A stretch of DNA of 64,000 nt from Cyanobacterium stanieri LEGE 03274 (GTDB lineage: Bacteria; Cyanobacteriota; Cyanobacteriia; Cyanobacteriales; Cyanobacteriaceae). The translations under genes and the position numbers were made by a program. Each line of letters opens with the position of its first letter. The first letter of the stretch is position 1. The stretch is taken from the NCBI RefSeq assembly GCF_015207825.1, contig NZ_JADEWC010000017.1, positions 1 to 64,000 on the forward strand. Direction: 5' to 3'. The notes below the pieces were generated by a model. That model was not told the DNA's origin and ran no database searches. It saw only the letters and a list, made by a program, of their open reading frames with translations. Below are positions 49,026-61,084 of the stretch, in pieces.

Positions 49026-50180
49026 CTAAATCGCAAATAATGACAAAATTTGGTTAACAGCATCAATAAGAATAGTGGCACTTTTTTCTATTTCTTCATG
49101 GGTAGTAAATTTGCCGATACCGATTCTCAAGGCACTTTCTATCAACTCATCTTCTAGGTTTATTGCCCTCAATACATGGGAAGGGGCTAGGGTTTGGGTG
49201 GTACAAGCTGAGCCAGTGGAGATGGCTATTTTATCCCTTATTCTAGCAATCATAGCACTGTTAGGGACATGGGGAATAGATATATGAAGATTTCCTGCTA
49301 GGCGGTTATGGATGTCACCGTTGATGATTAATGAAGGGATTTGTGATTGTAATATTGATTGTAGATGATTTCGTTTAAGAGCGATCGCCCTTTCGTCTTC
49401 TACCATTTCCAATTGTCTGAGATAACAAGCCTCTCCTAAAGCCACTATTCCTGATACATTGAGTGTACCTGATCGCAGTCCGTTTTGATGTCCTCCTCCA
49501 TAAATGAGGGGTTGAAGATGATACCCTTGTTTGACGATTAATGCACCGATGCCCTTGGGGGCGTATAATTTATGTCCGGAGATAGTTAGGAAGGTGATAC
49601 CCCAATCTTGAAAATTAAGGGGAATTTTACCCACTGCCTGAGAGCCATCACATAAAAAAGGGATATGATATGTTTGGGCAATTTTACCAATTTCTTGGAT
49701 AGGGTAAATGTTACCGATTTCGTTGTTGGCTGCCATGACACAGAGTAAGGATGCGCCTTGAGTGCATATTTTTTCGAGATATTCTAAGTCAATTCTGCCT
49801 TTCTTATCTACCTTTAGCCATGTGATTTTGCCTAATCCTCGTTTTACCATGGCTTGGCAGGTATCAATGACGGCTTTATGTTCGAGGGGTGAGATAATGA
49901 AATGGTGAGGGGGTGTTAATCCTTGGATGACGGTGTTAATGCTTTCGGTGGCGCCAGAGGTGAAAATAATTTCTTGGGCTTGACAGTTGATTAAGTCGGC
50001 TATTTGTTGTTTTGCTTTTTTGATCACATTTAAGGTGCGATCGCCCCATAGATGATCTATACTACTAGGATTACCAAAATTATCGATCATCGAGTCATAT
50101 ATCACATCGAGTAAGCGGCGATCTACTGGAGTAGTAGAATGATAATCTAAGTAGATAGGATTAAGCATTTTTTCTAACAT
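49026..50180 (-). CDS. Cysteine desulfurase, class I NifS/IscS/DndA-like
   Basis: A PLP enzyme giving a protein-bound persulfide. YLDYHSTTPVD is the N-terminal mark, ISGHKLYAPKGIGALIV carries the PLP Lys, LRSGTLN binds phosphate, and STGSACTTQTLAPSHVLRAI carries the reactive Cys on the flexible class I loop. It is clearly different from the SufS at 5611. It lies only 46 bp downstream of the last restriction-type gene, on the same strand, so it may be the sulfur donor of the adjacent sulfur-handling island (like DndA/SspA), or a housekeeping IscS placed at its edge. No iscU or other isc gene is nearby. Confidence 0.9.
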   Translation of the reverse strand: MLEKMLNPIYLDYHSTTPVDRRLLDVIYDSMIDNFGNPSSIDHLWGDRTLNVIKKAKQQIADLINCQAQEIIFTSGATESINTVIQGLTPPHHFIISPLEHKAVIDTCQAMVKRGLGKITWLKVDKKGRIDLEYLEKICTQGASLLCVMAANNEIGNIYPIQEIGKIAQTYHIPFLCDGSQAVGKIPLNFQDWGITFLTISGHKLYAPKGIGALIVKQGYHLQPLIYGGGHQNGLRSGTLNVSGIVALGEACYLRQLEMVEDERAIALKRNHLQSILQSQIPSLIINGDIHNRLAGNLHISIPHVPNSAMIARIRDKIAISTGSACTTQTLAPSHVLRAINLEDELIESALRIGIGKFTTHEEIEKSATILIDAVNQILSLFAI

Positions 50181-50226
50181 AATCGATGATGCGTTACTAG
50201 TTTCCCCTCATTCTGCAATGATTAGT

Positions 50227-51027
50227 TTAGTCTTCTTTTTTACAAAGAGTATTTATTTCTTCTTCAGAAATTTCATGTTTCAATACTAATTGATAGTGTT
50301 TTTCTTCTACCACAGAAAGACGGAATTTTTCCTGAGTTTCTTCTACAGATAACTCTAAAATAGCTACATCATTATTGCTTAAAAACTGCAAAGCAATAGG
50401 CTTACAAATTAGATTGGGATAGCGAATTTTACAAAACTCAATATCTTGCATAACTTGTACAATACCAAAGCTATCACCAGGTGATTTCGCTTGACAAGGT
50501 AAAACAAAATGAGCACCTCTTTTATTAATTCCTAAATAAATTTCATCTATTTCAATTTGTCCGATAGTATCTATACTGGTTCTTAAATGATTTTGAATTG
50601 AATAACAAGTTAATCCAGTAAATATATCAATTAGTCGATTATATCGAACTTTTGTTAATAAGGCTTGTTCATCCATACCCGGTGCATAGCGTTTCACAAT
50701 TTCGGGAGTAGCATCTGGTATTTTTATTAACTGTCTATTTTTTGTTACTTCAATTTTTCCGGGAGTTGCTTGTCTAAATTCATATGAAGCTCTACCAGTA
50801 CCAATTATAATCCAATCAGTATTTTCGGGAGCTTTATTTTTGATAGAATCAGGCAAATTTCTTATAAAGCGATAAGTGTAAGGAATATCACCTAAATTTT
50901 TTATTCTACTGATATTTAAAGTGTCACAGGCTTCAGCTAATTCTTCTCTACCAAATGATACTGTTTTATAGCCTTCCCTATAATTATTAAAAAATACTGT
51001 TTCTATAATGTCATCATATTTACTCAT
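50227..51027 (-). CDS. Putative restriction endonuclease partner with PD-(D/E)xK-like motif
   Basis: The 266-residue protein starts at ATG 51027, overlapping the end of the methyltransferase by 4 bp. It has no recognised family name. Residues about 157-181 read GQIEIDEIYLGINKRG followed by AHFVLPCQAK, resembling the PD-(D/E)xK nuclease core with Asp/Glu followed by (Q/E)xK after one strand. The N-terminal half (EELAEACDTLNISRIKNLGD) could recognise DNA. Genetic coupling to a C5 methyltransferase makes a type II restriction enzyme likely. The call is inference. Confidence 0.65.
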   Translation of the reverse strand: MSKYDDIIETVFFNNYREGYKTVSFGREELAEACDTLNISRIKNLGDIPYTYRFIRNLPDSIKNKAPENTDWIIIGTGRASYEFRQATPGKIEVTKNRQLIKIPDATPEIVKRYAPGMDEQALLTKVRYNRLIDIFTGLTCYSIQNHLRTSIDTIGQIEIDEIYLGINKRGAHFVLPCQAKSPGDSFGIVQVMQDIEFCKIRYPNLICKPIALQFLSNNDVAILELSVEETQEKFRLSVVEEKHYQLVLKHEISEEEINTLCKKED

Positions 51028-52265
51028 AAAACACTCATTTTTAATCTTTTTCTTTTCGCAATTATATCATTAGAAACATTCCAATAATTTGATGCTTTGT
51101 CCATATTATATGCCATAAATTCAATATCTATTTTTTCTAATTTTCTCACGTCTAATTGGTTAATATCTATTTCTAAAACCTTAATTATTTCGTTTCCTAT
51201 TGCCTTCGCTAACATGGGAATAACTGCGTTACCAATTTCTCGGAAACCATGCCAAATTGTCTCATGAAATAAAAACCAATCAGGAAATGTGTGCAGTCTT
51301 CCTGCTTCCCTTACTGTAATACATCTTGGCTGATTGTAGTGGATTGGACGAGCGGCGGTATAAGCCCCTTTATCTCTAGCAGTTCCAGCCCTTAATGTGT
51401 TACACAATCCTGTAGGTGAAAGTTTCAAGAAACGACTGATTTTTTCTACTTCCCCTTGAGGAGTATTTTGAAAACGTTGTCTTGATTTTTCTGTGTGATT
51501 TGAGCCTACATGGTTATAAACTAAATTATCTCGTTGTCGATCATGACATAATTTATAAATCCCTTGAGGTTTTAAGGCAAAATTACGCCTAAATCCTGAG
51601 TAATCGAGTTTATTTACCTCTATACCTTCATTTTTACCAATAAAAGCGGAAATACTGCTTAAATCATTGATAGTATTCTCCACATCATTATATTCACCTG
51701 TTTCGAGAGGATAATTAACAGGTTGCATATCATGACGACTACCCATGAGGATAAGGCGTTTTCGCTTCTGGGGTGCCCCAAAAAGACTTGCATCGAGAAT
51801 TTGAATCGGCTTGGCGATGTGATAACCCAATGACTCAAATTCGTTGATTAGTTCTTCTAAAAATTGTTTATGCTTACCAACGGCGATACCGGGGACATTT
51901 TCAAAGACAAAATATTTCGGTTGTAAATCTCGAATCACTCGCACATATTCAAATACCAATGAATTACGGGGATCATCTAATTGTCTTTTTCCCATGAGAG
52001 AAAACCCTTGACAGGGTGGACCACCTGCGATTAAATCGATTTCATCGATACCTTTATCTTGAAGAATCCCTTTTAAATACTCGGTTTTGAGATGGTTTAT
52101 ATCTTGGCAAATAGTGTGAGTATAAGGAAAATTGAGATGATGAATTAGAGCATGAATTGCATCAAACTCAACAGCTACCACTACATCAAATCCAGAGGCT
52201 TCTAAACCCAAGGACATTCCCCCACATCCTGAAAATAAATCCATTGCAATTGGTCTTTTCATCAT
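51024..52265 (-). CDS. DNA (cytosine-5) methyltransferase
   Basis: The enzyme methylates C5 of cytosine in a short recognition site. Motif I is DLFSGCGGMSLGLEASGFDV, motif IV AGGPPCQGFSLMG (catalytic Cys in PCQ), motif VI VFENVPGI, motif VIII QKRKRLILMGS, motif IX TVREAGRLHTFPDWF and motif X IGNAVIPMLAKAIGNEI. All are present in the normal order in 413 residues, and the variable region sits between VIII and IX. Its stop overlaps the start of the nuclease candidate, a usual restriction-modification arrangement. Some cyanobacterial C5 enzymes methylate CGATCG, the HIP1 core; this one's site cannot be read from sequence. Confidence 0.95.
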   Translation of the reverse strand: MMKRPIAMDLFSGCGGMSLGLEASGFDVVVAVEFDAIHALIHHLNFPYTHTICQDINHLKTEYLKGILQDKGIDEIDLIAGGPPCQGFSLMGKRQLDDPRNSLVFEYVRVIRDLQPKYFVFENVPGIAVGKHKQFLEELINEFESLGYHIAKPIQILDASLFGAPQKRKRLILMGSRHDMQPVNYPLETGEYNDVENTINDLSSISAFIGKNEGIEVNKLDYSGFRRNFALKPQGIYKLCHDRQRDNLVYNHVGSNHTEKSRQRFQNTPQGEVEKISRFLKLSPTGLCNTLRAGTARDKGAYTAARPIHYNQPRCITVREAGRLHTFPDWFLFHETIWHGFREIGNAVIPMLAKAIGNEIIKVLEIDINQLDVRKLEKIDIEFMAYNMDKASNYWNVSNDIIAKRKRLKMSVL

Positions 52266-52506
52266 TTGAAAATAATACTACCTACTCACTTTATCAAGAA
52301 AATATTTTCATTTCAAGATCTTCAGATATTATTAAAATTTCGTCCACTACTATTGATACATTAAACTGTGCTTTAATAATAGAAAAAAATAATATAAAAA
52401 ACTGATTAAGTATGCTATTTTTATGTTCAGCATTCAGTAATAAATCAGATGTTTTCAATGTATGATAATCTCCATATTAAGCAATATATTAATAAGAATT
52501 TAACCT

Positions 52507-53961
52507 CTACATCACATCAACGATAATATCCCTCTCATACTGTTTAAACTCATCATCCAGATTGTACAATAAACCATGAATATTTTGTCGTAACTCTCGA
52601 GCAGGTTTTAAACAATTCAATAAATACTCCTCCGTTGTTAAATTAAGGCTAGGATAAAGTATTTTCAAAAAACCAGAAGCACTTTTTAAAATTGCATTTT
52701 CATCTCTTATAGATACCTTAGAAATAAAATTAGTATGAGATTTTGCATAATGATAAAAACGATTATCCTTCCTCAAACTCAATAAAACATCCCCAAAAAA
52801 ATCAGTTTTTAAACCTATCTGATAAGCCGTCATTTTTGATTGAAACTTAGGAATTTTCCACCCCGGAATAATTCCCGCAAAACGATCTAATAAAGCCGTT
52901 TCTGAAAAAAACTTAGGCAGATTTTTAATTAAATTATCTTCATTTTTCGGACGTTGATAAGCATCCAATTCGATATTAGCTAACAACACCAAACTACAAT
53001 CACTACTTATATCAGCAAACCCCGCCCGATTATAACGCCCATTCGCCAAATAAGTTTTTAAAGGGCCAATCATTTCGTCAGGATTATCAAAAGTTAAACT
53101 TTGAACCTCATCTAACACAGTAACATCATAAGTACCCAATAAACCTATTTCCCCAGTTCTACCATTAAAAAATAATCGTGGCGCCGTTATTTTCCCTCCA
53201 CTTACCACCATTACCTTACTATTAACATTCTCATAAAAGAAACTTTTTCCCGTGCCTTTAGGCGCCAATTCCATCACATGATAGTTAGATTCTACGAGAG
53301 GTAATAATCTACTGAAAACCCAGATTTTTGCATCATTATTATAGCCAGAATCTTCAGGGTTTAAACCCATCGAACAAAACATTAAATCTCGCCATTCTTC
53401 AAAGGTAAACTCATCACGACATCGAGCATAATATCTTAAATCCACTTCTGAAGATTGAAAAGGATCAAAATTGCAAATATTAATGTTATACTTTCCCTGT
53501 TCATTCACACTATAATTAAGGGTAATTTTCCCCCATAATCCTCTCCCTAATAATAAAGGATATTTTTCAAGAATATCAGAATCAATATCACATTCTCTAA
53601 GGTTTAAAATAGGAATACTTGCCAAGGGTTTTTGTATTTCATCCGTTGCTTTTTCAAGGGGAATTCTTACCTTTAATTTAGCAATTAACTGATATTCTTC
53701 TCCCTGATATACTTTATATTTGATTCTTTCCTTATCATCTTTTCTCGGAAAGGCTTTCATTACTAAACTGTTTACCCTATCATGCTCTGCATTACTTAAA
53801 TCACCTCTACCCGGTGCAATTTTATCTAATATCCATTCAGCCACAAAACTAGGCACTCCGACTTTATTTAATCCGCTAGACGGTAATCTTGTTTTATCAA
53901 TGGAATAGTCGCTAAATATTTGATTTACTAAATCATTCTGATAGGGATTATTGTGGTGCAT
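52507..53961 (-). CDS. BrxL-like AAA ATPase lacking the Lon protease domain
   Basis: The protein resembles BrxL of BREX phage defence: ELAPKGTGKSFFYENVN is Walker A (residues about 231-247), VVSGGKITAPRLFFN follows, TVLDEVQSLTFDNPDEMIGPLK is Walker B with its BrxL-specific continuation, and LLDRFAGIIPGWKIPK is another BrxL mark. The usual BrxL is about 680 residues, with a C-terminal Lon-like protease domain; here it stops at 484, so that domain is absent. The N-terminal part binds DNA in BrxL. It is followed by a 241-bp gap before the methyltransferase. Confidence 0.85.
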   Translation of the reverse strand: MHHNNPYQNDLVNQIFSDYSIDKTRLPSSGLNKVGVPSFVAEWILDKIAPGRGDLSNAEHDRVNSLVMKAFPRKDDKERIKYKVYQGEEYQLIAKLKVRIPLEKATDEIQKPLASIPILNLRECDIDSDILEKYPLLLGRGLWGKITLNYSVNEQGKYNINICNFDPFQSSEVDLRYYARCRDEFTFEEWRDLMFCSMGLNPEDSGYNNDAKIWVFSRLLPLVESNYHVMELAPKGTGKSFFYENVNSKVMVVSGGKITAPRLFFNGRTGEIGLLGTYDVTVLDEVQSLTFDNPDEMIGPLKTYLANGRYNRAGFADISSDCSLVLLANIELDAYQRPKNEDNLIKNLPKFFSETALLDRFAGIIPGWKIPKFQSKMTAYQIGLKTDFFGDVLLSLRKDNRFYHYAKSHTNFISKVSIRDENAILKSASGFLKILYPSLNLTTEEYLLNCLKPARELRQNIHGLLYNLDDEFKQYERDIIVDVM

Positions 53962-54049
53962 GATTATATTTTTTTGTAATCTTTAAACAATATTGAAAAG
54001 TGATTATTTTTTGTACTATAGATAAATATAGTAATTAAAAACACTTAAT

Positions 54050-56410
54050 CTATAAAAATTCGTCAATTCCTGTAGCAAAACCGCTATTATATTCAGTTTT
54101 ATTGTGATTGGTAGTTAGTCGGAAAAGAATTTTATTTTTATCGGCTAATTCTCCTAAACTGGCTTTAATATTTTCTTTTGCTAATTTTTCTACATCAATT
54201 TGTTTTGTTTTTATAATTGTAGCTACGTGTTTTTCTATATCTTCATCTAATAAACCTTGTCCTTTTAACTGTGCTTTTTGTAATTCCAATTGATTATTAA
54301 ATTCTTTAGATTTAATACTGCTATCAATACCTTTATTTATAAATTCTTTTCTCAGATTTAATATGCTGTCAATAATACTAGGTAATATCTTTAAATATTT
54401 CTGTGCTAAATCTTGACTATCTGGAGAATTTAATTCTTCTAATAATCCTTGATAACTATATTTACAATGCACCATTTCTAAGATAGCATAACGGAAAAAT
54501 ATCCATTGACTCTCATTTAATTCTTTAAGATGAAGATGCAACAAACCTCTTAAACCTAATTCACTAGGGTTAAATACATTAATTCTTGATTCATTTATTA
54601 AACCAGTTAGGGTATGGTGTAAACTATCGGATGATGAAGAAAAATATTTGTTTAAAGCCTTTAAATATAATTGAGAAATAAACTTAGTAATTCTCAGTCT
54701 TTCTTCATAGGATGTAGATTGATTATTTTCAATCATTAATTCAACAATAGAATGAATTGTCATGGGATAACCTAATTGAAAAGCCTGAGTAGAAATAGCA
54801 TCTAAAATAGATTTTGCTTTGGCTAATAACTCTTTTTTTTCGTTTTCGCTATTATTGTCTAAAAAACGATCGCACTCTATACTAAACAATTTACAAGCAG
54901 TATTTAACTTTATTTTATCTTCCCAAGTTTCTACGGCTTTTAAGGTATTTTTTGCATCTTTTAACTGATTATGAAGATAATCACTGATGGGTTTACCTTC
55001 TTCCTGATACTTATTAATTTTATCCTTTAAACGATGGATATGATCTTCAAAAATTGCTTGAACTGCACTACCTTCAAACAATAAATTAAAAGATTTAATG
55101 TGAATTTCTTCGGTGCGTAATAAAGGAGTTTGTAACTGCTGATAAACTTCTCTCATGGCTTGATTATAAACCGCAAAGGGAGTAAATTGATCGAATAAAG
55201 GTAACAAAACTACATCCGTTAAATTGCCCAATAAATTAACCGCTAATTGTACCTGTTGTAAAGGGTGATATTTTCCCGAAAAACGATCATAATAATTCCA
55301 TTTTTGCTCTAATTCTGTACCTTTTAATAAATCCTCACAACGCTCTTTATTTTTAACTCGACGCTTATCGGTAATATCTTTTACCGACTCATCAAGATTA
55401 AAAGCATCTTTCATGCCAAAACTAATGGCACAATGAATTTTATGTAATGCTACAGCTGTACAATATTCCAATTGCCCTGTAACCACTTCACTTTTACGGG
55501 TATCGGCATCAGAAAGACTATCACCAAAGGCAAAGGAGTAAATACGCGCCACCGAGGAATTATCTTCCCCCCTATCTTTTAACTGGGATAGGGTATTACG
55601 CATCATACGGGCGGCTAAATCTTCATCATCTAATAATAACTCCCTTGATGGACTAATACGTTTAGCATTTTTGTTTACTACCACAAAGATTTCTCGAGAG
55701 ACACTTTTTAAGTCGATGCCTTGGGTTTGTAAAGCCTGATTACCTTCATATAAATCAGGAAAAAAGACAATACAAACAGGTAATTCTAAGTTTTTTATCT
55801 GCTGTTGATTTACTTGTAAATGATTATAATAAGATGCGTATTTATTATCTCCCCATTTTTGGTTTATGGTGCGGTGAAGGGCTAAAATTGCCATGGCTCG
55901 ATGTTGTCCATCAACAATTATTAAAGCACTCTGTTTTTGGTTATATTTTAACACTCCTAAAGGGGTTAATTGTCCATTTAAAGTATGTTTTTCAAATTCA
56001 AATAAATTACCAAAACTCATGGATGTATCGTTTTGATGGGTAAGGGGAGGATAATAGGGTAATATACCTGATTTATCAATTCTTTTTGGGGCTAAAACTG
56101 CCAATATAGGCGGAAAAAAACGAGCATTAGAGCCACTTTCACCGAGTAGGTAAGGAATCAAGTCGTTAGCTACCCTAGAATCGTCTAAGTCTCTTTGTAG
56201 TAATTCGTCGAAGGTTAATTCATCAATTTTGAAAATTTCTCGCCAAGGCACCATTTGATCTGCTAAACTATTTTCCCAACTATTTTCTACCCCTGGCTTC
56301 ATTTTTGTAAGTAAATATTGGGCGGTAATATGTTTATTTTCTGACTCAATGGTAAATTCTCCATAAGTACCATAAACATCTTGTTTTTGCACACCAAAGT
56401 TTAAATTCAT
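54050..56410 (-). CDS. Large DGQHR-domain protein (DndB-like)
   Basis: The DGQHR signature ALIIVDGQHRAMAILALHRT lies at about residues 162-181, after an N-terminal part of ParB/DndB-like style. Further in are QGIDLKSVSREIFVVVNKNA and ISPSRELLLDDEDLAARMM, both seen in DndB proteins. DndB regulates or assists phosphorothioate DNA modification. At 786 residues it is about twice as long as usual DndB; the extra C-terminal half is helical, without known motifs, and has coiled-coil-like stretches (KINKYQEEGKPISDYLHNQL). It lies between the DUF262 gene (57 bp) and the BrxL-like gene (88 bp). Confidence 0.8.
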   Translation of the reverse strand: MNLNFGVQKQDVYGTYGEFTIESENKHITAQYLLTKMKPGVENSWENSLADQMVPWREIFKIDELTFDELLQRDLDDSRVANDLIPYLLGESGSNARFFPPILAVLAPKRIDKSGILPYYPPLTHQNDTSMSFGNLFEFEKHTLNGQLTPLGVLKYNQKQSALIIVDGQHRAMAILALHRTINQKWGDNKYASYYNHLQVNQQQIKNLELPVCIVFFPDLYEGNQALQTQGIDLKSVSREIFVVVNKNAKRISPSRELLLDDEDLAARMMRNTLSQLKDRGEDNSSVARIYSFAFGDSLSDADTRKSEVVTGQLEYCTAVALHKIHCAISFGMKDAFNLDESVKDITDKRRVKNKERCEDLLKGTELEQKWNYYDRFSGKYHPLQQVQLAVNLLGNLTDVVLLPLFDQFTPFAVYNQAMREVYQQLQTPLLRTEEIHIKSFNLLFEGSAVQAIFEDHIHRLKDKINKYQEEGKPISDYLHNQLKDAKNTLKAVETWEDKIKLNTACKLFSIECDRFLDNNSENEKKELLAKAKSILDAISTQAFQLGYPMTIHSIVELMIENNQSTSYEERLRITKFISQLYLKALNKYFSSSSDSLHHTLTGLINESRINVFNPSELGLRGLLHLHLKELNESQWIFFRYAILEMVHCKYSYQGLLEELNSPDSQDLAQKYLKILPSIIDSILNLRKEFINKGIDSSIKSKEFNNQLELQKAQLKGQGLLDEDIEKHVATIIKTKQIDVEKLAKENIKASLGELADKNKILFRLTTNHNKTEYNSGFATGIDEFL

Positions 56411-56467
56411 AATTTTTATTTTGAATTATTTATTACATTTAAAAAACGATAAAGTAGTTCTTCTATT

Positions 56468-58816
56468 TCAATCTAAATCTAACCAAGCAGACATACGATC
56501 CCATAAAATATCGCAAATTCTTTCTGTTCTTTTTTTTACCAGACTTAAATCCCAATTTCCTGTTTCACCAACTTCAATTATTGATTTAATATGATGGGCG
56601 TGTTTAGCTTCTTGTAATAATTGAATAGTTGAATCATTTAACTTAATCCTTTTCTCTTTAGCTTTTTGTTTAATTGTTTTCAATTTATCTGGGTCTGTCT
56701 CTCCCAAATGTTGATAATAAAACCATTTTTCAAGCCAGTTTTTATTTGATGCAGAAATATTAATCGAGGTAGGTAATAAAGTTAGATTTCCTATTAGTTG
56801 ATAATTATCATTTTCATATAAGTGTTTATCCCATGTATTGTTGTTATTGGGATTTTGAGGTGCAATATGTTCAATACTACTAAGTTCTTTAATCCATTTA
56901 TTCGGATCTAAATAAGATATGGATGAACCATCTGTTCCTTTTTTCATTAAACCTAACTCTTTTGGATCCGAAATAGTATCATTTGAGGTAACAAACAAAG
57001 CAAACTTACATACTTTCTGAACGTTGTCATATTTTAGATAGTCAATAGCTTTACTTTTCCAATTTTCTTTTGTTCCGATATTTTCTTTTTTAAGAACATC
57101 TCTAAAATATGTTTTTAACTCTTTTGTTGTTAAAAATTTGTCCCCTTTTTCCCAAGACATTTTATTTTTAAGTAACTCTCTATATACATCATCTAAGCCT
57201 TTATTTTCTAAGGTCGAACGCCATAGAGTAAAAAATGCGGCAACAACTTGACAGGCGACGGCAAATTCTTCTGTTGCGTAATTCACCAAGTTTTCTCTAT
57301 CGTCTTCTCTAATTTTTAATTCAGAAGAAATAGCCTGAGAATAAAAACGACTTAAAATCGTATCAGCCATTTTATGGTTAGCTTCTTTAAGATACAGCAA
57401 ACATATTGAAGAGGTATTTTTTTGTGATAAATCCAAACATTTTAATTGGGGGAGAGATTTTTTTAAGTTATTTTCAGAATATATTATATCCTTACAATAT
57501 TTGGCAATTTGCCCCATTTGACAAATAAAATTTTCCTTTTTATCGATAGATTCTTGCTGTTCAAATTTATTTATTAACCATTGTCTTTGAATGCTGAACT
57601 GTTTCCTTAAACTTTTTCCATCATAAGTTAAAGCAAATAAATTCAGATAATCATTCGTTCTTTTATTTTTACTAGAAGCACTTCTTAAGTTTTTCATTAA
57701 GTCCTCTATTTTTTGAAAATACTTATCAAAGTTTGACCCTAAGAAATTATTTTTATTATTTTCAAATATGTTTACAACTAAAGGTTTAAATGTTTCTATT
57801 GCAGTTAAAGGGGTACCTGTTGCATTGAGTGACTGAAACATATCAAAGGCTCTTACTTCTGATTGTGGTCGAATAACAGTAAAGCAACAGCGTTTAAATA
57901 GATAATGACAAAATGCAAATAATTGAACTACAGAACAAAGATTTTTTTCATTCTTATTCAGTTCTTCCAAAGACTTTTTACCACAATTATTAATTACCTC
58001 ATATAGTTCATGACGTTCATAGCTCCAAAACTCTGATTGATCTACTGTTTTAAGTATCTGCCATGCAGTTGGACAATCATCATTCAAACCATAGGATTTT
58101 TCTATTTTAGTTAAATAACTTTGAATTTTTTTGATATTTTTATATACCAAAGAATTTTTATTTATATTTTCAAAAGTAAAGAAATTATTTCTATTATTTT
58201 CTATTTCAAAAATATTCTTAATAAATTGAGCTAAATATGATGATACATCTGATTGATAATTTTCACTTTCTGAACCTTCACAAGTCCAACAATCTGATGA
58301 ACTTCTTATTATTATTGGTTTCCGTTCAGGAGAACCTCTTTGAAGATCAAATGAAAATATTTCTTGTAAAGACTTTAAATAAGTATTAATTGCTTCTCTT
58401 AATCCATCTAAATCTAAAGATGGATTTTTCATTGTGTTAGGCAGTTTTTGTTTTATTTCAAATATGTTTTGGTACAAGCAACAAGCTAATAACGCAATAG
58501 TTGATATTCTTTGTTGTCCATCAATTACATTATCAACACGAGTCGGAATAGCACGACTGTCTTGTGGTTGAATTTTTGATCTATCGTTTTCTGTACACAA
58601 AATAGTAGTACCTAAAAAGTGAATTGTTTGTTTGTTTTCCACTAATTCATAAACACCTGATAAAATATCTTCCATTAACTGTTCTACGTTATCTTCATCC
58701 CAAGCATATTCTCTTTGATAAACAGGGATATAATAAGCAGCACCTGCCTGTGTAAAAAAATCAAATATATCTTTGCTTTCTGTTTGAAAAATTCTTGTAA
58801 TATCTAAATTATTCAT
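56468..58816 (-). CDS. DUF262-DUF1524 protein (SspE/GmrSD-like restriction protein)
   Basis: The N-terminal DUF262 domain has YYIPVYQREYAWDEDNVEQL (about 28-47) and VIDGQQRISTIALLA (DGQQR at 99-103), the nucleotide- and modification-sensing motif. The C-terminal DUF1524 domain has the His-Asn nuclease core, IEHIAPQNPN (from about 648) and LIGNLTLLPTSIN. The same two domains form SspE, which restricts phages using phosphorothioate marks, and GmrSD, which cuts modified DNA. The length of 782 residues is normal. It starts only 13 bp after the PAPS-reductase-like gene ends, so they are co-transcribed and probably functionally linked. Confidence 0.88.
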   Translation of the reverse strand: MNNLDITRIFQTESKDIFDFFTQAGAAYYIPVYQREYAWDEDNVEQLMEDILSGVYELVENKQTIHFLGTTILCTENDRSKIQPQDSRAIPTRVDNVIDGQQRISTIALLACCLYQNIFEIKQKLPNTMKNPSLDLDGLREAINTYLKSLQEIFSFDLQRGSPERKPIIIRSSSDCWTCEGSESENYQSDVSSYLAQFIKNIFEIENNRNNFFTFENINKNSLVYKNIKKIQSYLTKIEKSYGLNDDCPTAWQILKTVDQSEFWSYERHELYEVINNCGKKSLEELNKNEKNLCSVVQLFAFCHYLFKRCCFTVIRPQSEVRAFDMFQSLNATGTPLTAIETFKPLVVNIFENNKNNFLGSNFDKYFQKIEDLMKNLRSASSKNKRTNDYLNLFALTYDGKSLRKQFSIQRQWLINKFEQQESIDKKENFICQMGQIAKYCKDIIYSENNLKKSLPQLKCLDLSQKNTSSICLLYLKEANHKMADTILSRFYSQAISSELKIREDDRENLVNYATEEFAVACQVVAAFFTLWRSTLENKGLDDVYRELLKNKMSWEKGDKFLTTKELKTYFRDVLKKENIGTKENWKSKAIDYLKYDNVQKVCKFALFVTSNDTISDPKELGLMKKGTDGSSISYLDPNKWIKELSSIEHIAPQNPNNNNTWDKHLYENDNYQLIGNLTLLPTSINISASNKNWLEKWFYYQHLGETDPDKLKTIKQKAKEKRIKLNDSTIQLLQEAKHAHHIKSIIEVGETGNWDLSLVKKRTERICDILWDRMSAWLDLD

Positions 58817-58829
58817 AAATTCTAAAGTA

Positions 58830-59636
58830 CTATAAGTTACACACTAGACAGGGTAGGGTAGAATCTTCCTCATCTAATACAGACTCCAACGCTTCTGCTA
58901 GGGGGCGATTCGGTGCTTTTTCTTGTTTACGGGCGATCGCCCTTTCATGTTGTGCTATAATGTCTTCTTTACGCTCCAAAAGCTGTAATAAAGTCTCTCC
59001 CTGAGTCCAGGTATAAGTTCTACCATCCCGATGATTTGACTCATATTCCACCGCCTTTGCAAACAAATCAGGATGATTCTCCGCCAACATCACCCACTCA
59101 TACTTGCGTTGAAAGAAACAAAAAAAACAACCAGAGCGACTACGCCACTTATAATATTCAGGTAAACCGATACCGCTTTCCTCTAGCAAACGAATAATAT
59201 CAGCCTTTACCAAACCCCTCTCTTTGAAAGGAAAAACAGGTTTAATATTCGGCTTTGTAGAGATGTAACCCTCCCTATTTTCATCCGCACGAATACCGAT
59301 GTAGCTGATAGCCTCATCATCCCCCACAAATTCCTCAAAAGGCTTAATCTTCATTTTTACCGTACACCAGCGCATCTGAGGAGAAGGCAATAAACCATCA
59401 TGAATCGCTAACCAATGATCAAAACCCCTTTTTTCGCTAAGATAATTTATTTTAATGCCTAAACGAGCCTGAATGCGATCGAGATAATCATAGGTTTCCT
59501 GTAACTCCTTATGAGTATCACAAAAAAAATACTCCATATCAGGGATTTCCCTATGCAAAAGAATAGCTAAAGCAGTGCTATCCTTACCCCCCGAAAGCCC
59601 TAAAACATGCCTAGTTTTCTTCCCTGTCATCAACAA
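58830..59636 (-). CDS. PAPS-reductase-family ATP pyrophosphatase (DndC/SspD/BrxP-like)
   Basis: LGLSGGKDSTALAILLHREI carries the PP-loop SGGKDS (residues 15-20), and FFCDTHKELQETYDYL follows, as in PAPS reductases and DndC. Cys in MRWCTVKMK and the SGCFFCFFQRKYEW pair could hold an iron-sulfur cluster, as in DndC. A further CLVC is at the C-terminus. The 268 residues lack the large C-terminal part of DndC. In sulfur-based DNA systems such enzymes activate DNA by adenylation before sulfur transfer. Assimilatory sulfate reduction is unlikely in this context. A HIP1 site occurs inside the gene. Confidence 0.85.
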   Translation of the reverse strand: MLMTGKKTRHVLGLSGGKDSTALAILLHREIPDMEYFFCDTHKELQETYDYLDRIQARLGIKINYLSEKRGFDHWLAIHDGLLPSPQMRWCTVKMKIKPFEEFVGDDEAISYIGIRADENREGYISTKPNIKPVFPFKERGLVKADIIRLLEESGIGLPEYYKWRSRSGCFFCFFQRKYEWVMLAENHPDLFAKAVEYESNHRDGRTYTWTQGETLLQLLERKEDIIAQHERAIARKQEKAPNRPLAEALESVLDEEDSTLPCLVCNL

Positions 59637-59775
59637 TATTTCAACGGTAAACTATGTTTCTTCCCATAGAATAGCAAGATTAAAGTCAGGGCGGTTGGAC
59701 TAAATTTTATTAAATCAAAATTAATTTAACTCAAAACTAATCCCCTCGGTAATCCCCAGTAGTTTGTTAATTTTT

Positions 59776-60900
59776 TTAACCATAATGCCAATTAGTAGAA
59801 AACCCCTGTATTTCCGCCAAAGAAATCAAAGGTTTAAAAGTTTTTTGATAAGCCTTCATCAAAATCTCTAACTTCAATAAATCATTAGGCTCATTTATTT
59901 TTAAATCAGTTAAATAACAATCAATATATTTTAACCATTTATTTTTAGGTAAAATATCATGGGAAATCATTAACCCTTGATGCTGTAAGTTAATAAACTT
60001 TTCCAAATAGTTAGTAGCAGGAATATTATTGGATTTAGCCGAATTAACATTATGAATACTAGGAATTAAATTCCATAATTGATCATGGGCAACAAATGAC
60101 CATGGTAAATAATGATCCACAGAAATACTTTTTTTGTCCAAAATATGACCAGAATAAATACATGTTAAAGACTCTTTTTCAAGAATTAACCTCCAGTATT
60201 TTGCCTGTTTAACAAGCGATTTACGTTTTACTAAAGGAAATAACTTTCTTGCTAAATTAGGAGTATTAGGATTATTTTTTTGCATATAATTTAACCACTC
60301 CCAAGCAACCCACCCCTTAAGAATTACAAAATTTTCTTTGATATAATTAATCCATTCAGGATGAATAATAACACCATCTATTGATTTATAATCCTCACTA
60401 TTAAAACAATATAATGGCTTTTTTTTCTCAAAAAAATCTCGTGATAACTCAATCATTTTATAATTTATATTAGCATCTTTTGCTCCTTTTAATTCCTCTA
60501 AAAAAAATGGTCTTATTAAACGAAAAGGAACATAAAACATTAAGCTATTAATAACATCATCAACATTAGAATGACTAAGAATAGAAATTAAAATATCTTT
60601 TCTGGTAATAGCTTTTTTTTCTGACTGTATATTAAGTCTATCTAACTTAAGAGAAATTTTATCCTGTTTACCAAAAGATAATTTAAAAAATACATGGGGA
60701 TACCAAGCATTAGCTAACATTTCAACTACTAAATCTCGAAAAGTAACTAACCCACAATTAAATAAATTTCTTTCTAAAATATCTAATAAAGCACTAAAAA
60801 AAAGATACTTATAAGAATTAGTAGTAGAGCTAAATAATTGACTTAAAGCTGAAATGTTCAGACAATGGGAAGAAGGTAAAGACTTATTATCAGTAAACAT
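59776..60900 (-). CDS. HNH endonuclease domain protein
   Basis: The C-terminal part has a good HNH core: LTCIYSGHILDKKSISVDHYLPWSFVAHD, with the catalytic His in VDHYLPWS, and LIPSIHNVNSAKSNNIP completing the HNH fold (about residues 250-300). The first half is helical, without known motifs (LVTFRDLVVEMLANAWYPHV). It is the first gene of the island, and the gap to the next is 139 bp. It probably cuts DNA, possibly depending on the modification made by the following genes. In related loci such HNH proteins accompany PAPS-reductase-like genes. Confidence 0.82.
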   Translation of the reverse strand: MFTDNKSLPSSHCLNISALSQLFSSTTNSYKYLFFSALLDILERNLFNCGLVTFRDLVVEMLANAWYPHVFFKLSFGKQDKISLKLDRLNIQSEKKAITRKDILISILSHSNVDDVINSLMFYVPFRLIRPFFLEELKGAKDANINYKMIELSRDFFEKKKPLYCFNSEDYKSIDGVIIHPEWINYIKENFVILKGWVAWEWLNYMQKNNPNTPNLARKLFPLVKRKSLVKQAKYWRLILEKESLTCIYSGHILDKKSISVDHYLPWSFVAHDQLWNLIPSIHNVNSAKSNNIPATNYLEKFINLQHQGLMISHDILPKNKWLKYIDCYLTDLKINEPNDLLKLEILMKAYQKTFKPLISLAEIQGFSTNWHYG

Positions 60901-61084
60901 TAACAGTATGATCCATTAATCTAAATTATAATAACCTGTAAAGTGAATTATCATCCACTGTTTAATAAATCCCATGACTGATAGGCTATTATTTAATAAA
61001 TTAAACTAAAATTAGTCGGATGCTTATAACATCCCCTCTAAATTAAGATAAGATTTGCTTGATGGTGGTTGCTAGGGATGCTCG

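Follow-up and report, generated by a model that had tools for sequence, protein, structure and literature searches.

Phosphorothioate defence systems of the Ssp kind join a modification core, SspABCD, to an effector such as SspE or SspFGH. In the Ssp systems in which the individual steps have been established, sulfur is taken from cysteine by SspA and activated by SspD, SspB (DNA binding, nicking) and SspC (an AAA+ ATPase) put it on one DNA strand, and the N-terminal nucleoside triphosphatase (NTPase) domain of SspE reads this mark while the HNH domain of the same protein nicks unmarked phage DNA. One source reports that residues Y30 and Q31 of SspE sense the phosphorothioate and that SspE alone is non-toxic, the sulfur mark being needed for its action (PMC9646914); two others describe unrestrained SspFGH as toxic to cells without phosphorothioate (PMC8092258) and DndB as an ATP-dependent negative regulator (PMC10853773). 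Here we analyse a gene cluster in a stretch of 64,000 nucleotides from Cyanobacterium stanieri LEGE 03274 (contig NZ_JADEWC010000017.1, positions 1 to 64,000; the whole stretch is herein referred to as the window, and its contig as C17), in which members of Ssp families lie among genes resembling parts of other defence systems. Judged by family membership and conserved residues, the same sequence of Ssp steps would be carried out in this organism by proteins encoded at two separate places of the genome.

The Ssp Genes and Their Separation

We consider it likely that SspD, SspE, and SspA of the window are part of an SspABCD–SspE phosphorothioate defence system whose SspB–SspC part is located on another contig. 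The cluster comprises eight open reading frames (ORFs), all on the minus strand from 60900 to 49026 and each open over its full length (table 1). The window proteins were scanned with Pfam, PADLOC, and further family profiles (e.g., TIGR02688). An earlier note on this DNA, made from the sequence alone, had described eight same-strand genes and named their families; the genes are real and most of the names were correct, and the search of defence profiles that it had proposed (PADLOC) matched SspD, SspE, SspA, BrxL, and the type II pair. Its observation that DndD, DndE, SspB, PglZ, and BrxC are not in the cluster also holds for the eight cluster proteins, among which the family scans matched none of these five, nor SspC. 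SspB, however, is not missing from the genome, as the note had supposed: a genome-wide search recovered a single copy on contig C2 (154176–155018), with 328 bits to DUF4007 and 391 bits to the SspB profile. Adjoining it is SspC, present as two consecutive frames of 800 and 399 residues (L117:8236-11837 in the fetched C2 stretch) that both match one SspC profile with 969 and 483 bits, over profile positions 2–737 and 738–1104, respectively. SspD of the window is the only copy in the genome at E ≤ 0.01; it scores 381 bits against SspD as opposed to 49 against BrxP and 34 against DndC, and lacks DUF4007. SspA shares 92% identity with its counterpart at the end of the Ssp cluster in the congener G003.

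Table 1. Predicted genes of the window cluster, with positions in the window and principal family matches.
Feature	Position	Strand	Family match
HNH nuclease (HNH_4, Cas9-like HNH), accessory	59776..60900	-	Pfam HNH_4 39.8 bits
SspD, PP-loop (PAPS-reductase-like) enzyme, 268 residues	58830..59636	-	PADLOC SspD 381 bits, full length; SGGKDS motif
SspE, DUF262-DUF1524, predicted phosphorothioate-sensing NTPase and HNH nickase	56468..58816	-	PADLOC SspE 1061 bits, full length
DGQHR protein, 786 residues, putative ParB/Srx-like N-terminal domain, helical C-terminal part	54050..56410	-	Pfam DndB 34.6 bits, partial
Short BrxL, AAA+ ATPase lacking the Lon-like protease part	52507..53961	-	Pfam BrxL_N and BrxL_ATPase; Walker motifs
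C5 cytosine methylase of the type II pair, probably a passenger	51024..52265	-	MTase_II 494 bits
Restriction endonuclease of the type II pair, probable passenger	50227..51027	-	REase_II 324 bits, full length
SspA, cysteine desulfurase	49026..50180	-	DndA 439 / SspA 436 bits

The genes sspABCD, which form one cluster in G003, G004, and G011, are here divided, with SspB–SspC on C2 and SspD and SspA on C17. In all five family relatives that were read (G003, G004, G008, G010, and G011), SspB–SspC lies upstream of HNH–SspD on the same strand, with one or two small ORFs between SspC and HNH in G008, G010, and G011. SspA ends the cluster in G003, G011, and G004, and likewise in G010, where it stands behind a truncated SspA copy; in G008, it was not seen within the fetched stretch. 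Because SspB and SspC occur in the same genome and are joined to HNH–SspD in the relatives, the arrangement reads as SspABCD–SspE with a displaced SspB–SspC half. Similarity between the window DNA and that of G003 and G004 stops at 60903, at the start of the HNH gene; the chromosomal genes on either side of the window cluster are widely separated in both of these genomes; and the gene adjoining SspA in G003 adjoins SspB in the genome studied here. A rearrangement that cut between SspC and HNH would explain both the end of the cluster match at HNH and the distance between the flanking genes in G003 and G004. Both sites are interior to their contigs and flanked by ordinary genes, in an assembly of 67 contigs.

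Elsewhere, SspB and SspC are oriented opposite to SspD at two loci (L046:2-5126 and L063:2586-10817), and the block of these two genes therefore seems to move as a unit. Another genome, G041, has an SspD with internal stops, preceded by urease-like genes and with no SspC there (L147:8812-12014); its sole DUF4007 gene is on a different contig, close to the start coordinate, and may mark a second separated SspB–SspC block.

SspE of the window aligns over nearly its full length with the solved Streptomyces SspE (6jiv). By hand count on this alignment, Y30 and Q31 of 6jiv correspond to Y33 and Q34; also conserved are R32, R404, the DGQQR motif, and three residues of the HNH motif (H, N, and N). 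SspE thus appears to be active, and its nucleotide gating or DNA binding may be altered. Since its action requires the sulfur mark, it would be harmless while SspC is off.

A Cytosine Run in SspC

All six SspC genes of the window's family contain one uninterrupted run of eight or nine C in the same linker. Runs of eight leave SspC in frame in G003 and G011, and runs of nine shift it in G004, G008, and G010; the SspC of the genome studied here has eight C yet is shifted, through a one-base difference from G003 just upstream of the run. Over the whole gene, the longest C run among 68 other SspC loci is seven, found in three of them. These 68 are the loci of the SspD survey described below whose match covers the run stretch, taken irrespective of family; their SspD proteins are at most 87% similar to that of the window, compared with at least 91% within the family. 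Runs of eight consecutive C are not rare in these genomes, each of which has 31 to 124 overlapping matches, so that a single run is unsurprising; what is surprising is its conserved place with lengths that change the frame.

This pattern suggests that the SspC run is a site of slippage and phase variation, or else a weak spot of sequencing. Long C runs are prone to length errors, both in-frame SspC genes (G003 and G011) come from single-contig genomes, and homopolymer errors in assemblies are a real alternative to a switchable frame. Since SspC carries the run and is out of frame here, the modification may be switchable. A simple off switch is at odds with G010, whose SspC is shifted and which carries SspFGH-type genes; given the toxicity reported for unrestrained SspFGH, G010 may still produce some full-length SspC, or its run may have been misread. 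The titles and abstract openings that we found on phase variation together with phosphorothioation or with cyanobacterial restriction-modification describe no variable SspC.

The Interval Between SspD and SspA

The gene content of Ssp clusters was surveyed at 80 SspD loci kept out of 245 (the SspD ORF of L067 was hidden by ORF picking, and 79 of the 80 SspD ORFs were counted). The labels in this survey denote BLAST similarity to one reference protein each and hence predicted function only. SspB is present in 65 and SspC in 74 of the 80 loci, some of the others being short contigs, and 41 loci hold SspB, SspC, SspD, and SspA together. Anywhere in those 41 stretches, a helicase/GHKL/PLD set occurs in 22, SspE in nine, the DGQHR protein in nine (with a GIY-YIG-like gene labelled in six), SspFGH-type genes in seven, the HNH gene in five, and a BREX-like gene (of a 1566-residue type or PglZ-like) in two; combinations occur. 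In cyanobacterial loci, the cassette genes lie mostly between SspD and SspA, and the identity of SspF and SspG was confirmed by profile at this same site in G010. We regard the SspD–SspA interval of cyanobacteria as an exchange site for predicted effector cassettes. Actinobacterial loci have SspA upstream of SspB, and the site thus differs there. In the window, the site holds SspE, the DGQHR–BrxL pair, and an unrelated type II pair, with the HNH protein as a further accessory nuclease.

Two other inserts were seen in cyanobacterial Ssp clusters. One is a frequent cassette consisting of a helicase, a GHKL-ATPase protein (with a weak MzaB match), and a PLD-like protein, for example at L123:4716-9486. 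The other lies between SspD and SspA of G003 (L118:2922-12667) and comprises a second, divergent DUF4007 protein, proteins of 144 and 1566 residues with no family match, a weak PglZ, and a BrxL; by its gene content, it is a BREX-like cassette added to an Ssp core.

The DGQHR Protein and BrxL

Relatives of the DGQHR protein were found in 10 of 386 cyanobacterial genomes, and in all ten they lie near SspD, with no more than a few small genes in between. Since only 16 of 60 relatives were found to have SspD, this association is not due to chance. SspC is in the same stretch in eight of the ten genomes, the exceptions being the genome studied here and G041. The DGQHR motif is invariant in all 13 aligned sequences, and by its position the protein is a faithful partner of Ssp genes. 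At 8 of the 13 DGQHR loci of the survey, a GIY-YIG-like gene is labelled. This small protein (L006:10824-11507 and nine relatives) precedes the DGQHR gene in many Ssp clusters; its name rests on our own reading of its motifs, the one member scanned had no Pfam match, and no useful match was found among PDB sequences. It may be a nuclease partner of the DGQHR protein. In three genomes (that studied here, G004, and G011), the DGQHR gene is followed directly by BrxL, with no PglZ, and these three are without the GIY-YIG-like gene; the other two, G004 and G011, carry SspB and SspC in the same cluster.

The N-terminal domain of the DGQHR protein is taken to be ParB/Srx-like from a model alignment and the Pfam DndB match. 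In a structure model of moderate quality (mean predicted local distance difference test score, pLDDT, 67.9), residues 25–248 align with the N-terminal domain of SspE (7drs; VIA-align Z 4.7, 142 residues, root mean square deviation 3.9), and residues 32–249 with ParB/Noc proteins (7ol9, Z 4.7; 6sdk, Z 4.5). A comparison of the DGQHR protein with PDB sequences gave no useful match. The BrxL of the window (410 bits to a PADLOC-type profile and 441 bits to TIGR02688, above the cut-off) aligns with residues 10–455 of the solved BrxL of 679 residues and has no domains beyond the N-terminal and ATPase ones. Of the 386 cyanobacterial genomes, 34 have a BrxL relative. Among 11 laid-out BrxL loci at least 60% identical, three stand beside DGQHR and six beside a PglZ-like gene; one of the remaining two is beside two other BREX-like cassette genes, and the other has none in a short flank. 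In a tree of 17 rows (omitting L030, L031, L156–L158, the second G004 fragment, and most of the distant loci), the DGQHR-linked BrxLs form one branch with support 92/90 among the PglZ-linked short BrxLs, and a single acquisition of BrxL from a PglZ-linked cassette is therefore probable. All three DGQHR-linked BrxLs retain the Walker A motif. In G004, inserted genes break BrxL in an otherwise near-identical DGQHR–BrxL cassette (L119:12439-16009), the Ssp cluster lying there on a 55-kb contig.

We tentatively propose that the ParB/Srx-like domain of the DGQHR protein would sense the sulfur mark or a nucleotide and would direct or license the BrxL ring on DNA. Such an additional arm next to SspE is suggested by domain resemblance and position. 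A broader hypothesis, which we regard as doubtful, combines this idea with the SspC run: phosphorothioation would be phase-variable throughout the family, the C8–C9 run toggling marking and the effectors that depend on it, and the DGQHR protein with a GIY-YIG-like nuclease or BrxL would constitute a new class of sulfur-guided effectors, each pairing a ParB/Srx sensor that resembles the N-terminal domain of SspE with a separate DNA-acting protein driven by it. The titles and abstract passages retrieved included no paper on DGQHR together with BrxL, nor any on sspBCD together with cyanobacteria and phosphorothioate. No description of the DGQHR–BrxL cassette was found.

The HNH Gene and the Type II Pair

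The HNH gene that heads the cluster has relatives in 27 of the 386 cyanobacterial genomes; 16 of the 27 loci, counting that of the window, have an Ssp core or cassette gene no more than about 1.5 kb away. Its HNH residues are invariant in all 12 aligned sequences; a Foldseek search with its model (pLDDT 68.8) returned no match at E ≤ 0.001. The earlier note had counted restriction-modification genes among the parts of one island, and such genes are present; their membership in the sulfur system is not borne out. The protein that the note had called PD-(D/E)xK-like is the endonuclease, identified by its match to the REase_II profile. The endonuclease was found in 9 of 100 relatives, the genome studied here included, and the methylase accompanies it at all eight other loci, in whose short flanks no Ssp gene was matched. 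We therefore rejected the idea that these two genes belong to the sulfur system. In G010, which also has an Ssp cluster, the pair is encoded far from it. The endonuclease has no PDB relative at E ≤ 0.1. The methylase and endonuclease are probably an ordinary type II system that landed in the Ssp cluster as a passenger. A DNA relative 72% identical to the C5 methylase gene (51094–52259 of the window) is found at C4:57013-58166 of the same genome and also in G003 and G004; it may represent an older methylase of similar specificity.

Alternative Explanations

Several points weigh against the interpretation given above. The shifted frame of SspC in this assembly may mean that the system is off or broken, and SspE is without counterparts of K40 and R408 in the alignment to 6jiv. 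The fold match of the DGQHR protein is weak, unrelated structures scoring alike or higher (among the latter a farnesyl diphosphate synthase at Z 4.8 and a designed cage at Z 5.5), and Foldseek returned no match at E ≤ 0.001 for its model (pLDDT about 68). The adjacency of DGQHR and BrxL is confined to three related genomes, in one of which (G004) BrxL is interrupted. The separation of the two halves and the frame of SspC can be read as decay, in which a rearrangement cut the cluster, SspC was frameshifted, and the window genes are relics; the halves on separate contigs, the two SspC frames, and the broken BrxL of G004 are all consistent with this. We consider it unlikely, since all eight window genes are open over their full length with their motifs kept, and since four of the six family SspC genes are shifted at or just upstream of the same C run, which argues for one hot spot rather than scattered decay. 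It is less probable still that the split and the frameshift are assembly or sequencing errors, the true cluster being in one piece with SspC intact. The fragmentation of the assembly, the origin of the in-frame SspC genes from single-contig genomes, and the general susceptibility of C runs to length errors would fit such errors; however, both sites lie inside contigs with ordinary flanks, the genes flanking the window cluster have other positions in G003 and G004, and the frame difference of this SspC from that of G003 is a base upstream of the run and not the length of the run.

As to the role of the DGQHR protein, the cluster viewed by itself, with no SspB or SspC beside SspD but with a DGQHR protein and an AAA+ protein, could be taken for a new minimal sulfur system in which DGQHR and BrxL stand in for SspB and SspC and work with SspA, SspD, and SspE. 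This is very improbable: SspB and SspC are encoded in the same genome, and the clusters of G004 and G011 hold both alongside DGQHR–BrxL, findings on which we dropped the substitution. A reading that we hold to be possible, at about the same level as our proposal of a second arm, is that the DGQHR protein regulates sulfur marking in the manner of DndB and is not an effector, and that the adjacent BrxL is a remnant of a PglZ–BrxL cassette. Its N-terminal part matches Pfam DndB, for which negative regulation dependent on ATP has been reported (PMC10853773), and related short BrxLs stand mostly beside PglZ-like genes. A regulator of this kind is, however, difficult to reconcile with the frequent position of the DGQHR gene behind a GIY-YIG-like gene at the effector exchange site, with its presence in just 10 of the 80 Ssp loci, which would be odd for a needed regulator, and with its match of only 17 bits to the PADLOC DndB profile. 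The preferred reading remains an SspABCD–SspE system with its SspB–SspC half displaced.

Comparison with Named Systems

The locus illustrates that the relocation of one half of a known, complete defence system to another part of the genome can give it the appearance of a new one. Beyond this, an effector exchange site between SspD and SspA is mapped, with cassettes other than SspE and SspFGH, and two leads emerge: the DGQHR proteins as a candidate family of Ssp-bound effectors or regulators, and a slippage-type run in SspC that could make sulfur marking reversible.

The earlier note had proposed a sulfur-dependent modification and restriction system of no named type. The first part stands as the best reading of the sequences; the second does not, the families of SspABCD–SspE being all encoded. 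It had itself held a match to one complete named system to speak against its proposal, and such a match was largely found, except that SspC is out of frame. Its view that BrxL and DGQHR are here combined with Ssp parts is confirmed, in that both are additions to the classic set.

BREX type 4 shares with this locus a BrxL, a PP-loop enzyme, and the relationship of SspB and SspC to DUF4007 and BrxC. It differs in that no PglZ was found here, the PP-loop enzyme is SspD and not a BrxP fusion, and the main effector is predicted to be SspE. A search of the genome for PglZ (PF08665) gave one match, of 19 bits and below the cut-off of 25, although a very divergent PglZ could escape this profile, to which the PglZ-like protein of G003 scores only 21 bits. 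We take the 19-bit match to be a phosphoglycerate mutase. BREX type 4 was rejected on the result of this search and on the lack of BrxP, the SspD of 268 residues having no DUF4007. With Dnd (DndABCDE), the locus has in common a cysteine desulfurase, a PP-loop enzyme, and a protein with the DGQHR motif of DndB; it differs in that the eight cluster proteins, to which the search was confined, include no match to DndD or DndE, and in that the DGQHR protein of 786 residues is DndB-like in its N-terminal part only. SspABCD–SspFGH has the same modification core, and relatives such as G010 hold SspFGH-type genes at the same exchange site, whereas neither the window nor the C2 stretch retrieved around SspB–SspC gave a match to such a gene. 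The closest likeness is to SspABCD–SspE, of which SspA, SspB, SspC, SspD, and SspE are all present in the genome with strong profile matches; the differences are the location of SspB–SspC on another contig, the frame of SspC, and the additional HNH gene, DGQHR–BrxL cassette, and type II pair. As judged from its genes, this is an Ssp system split over two places and carrying a DGQHR–BrxL cassette.

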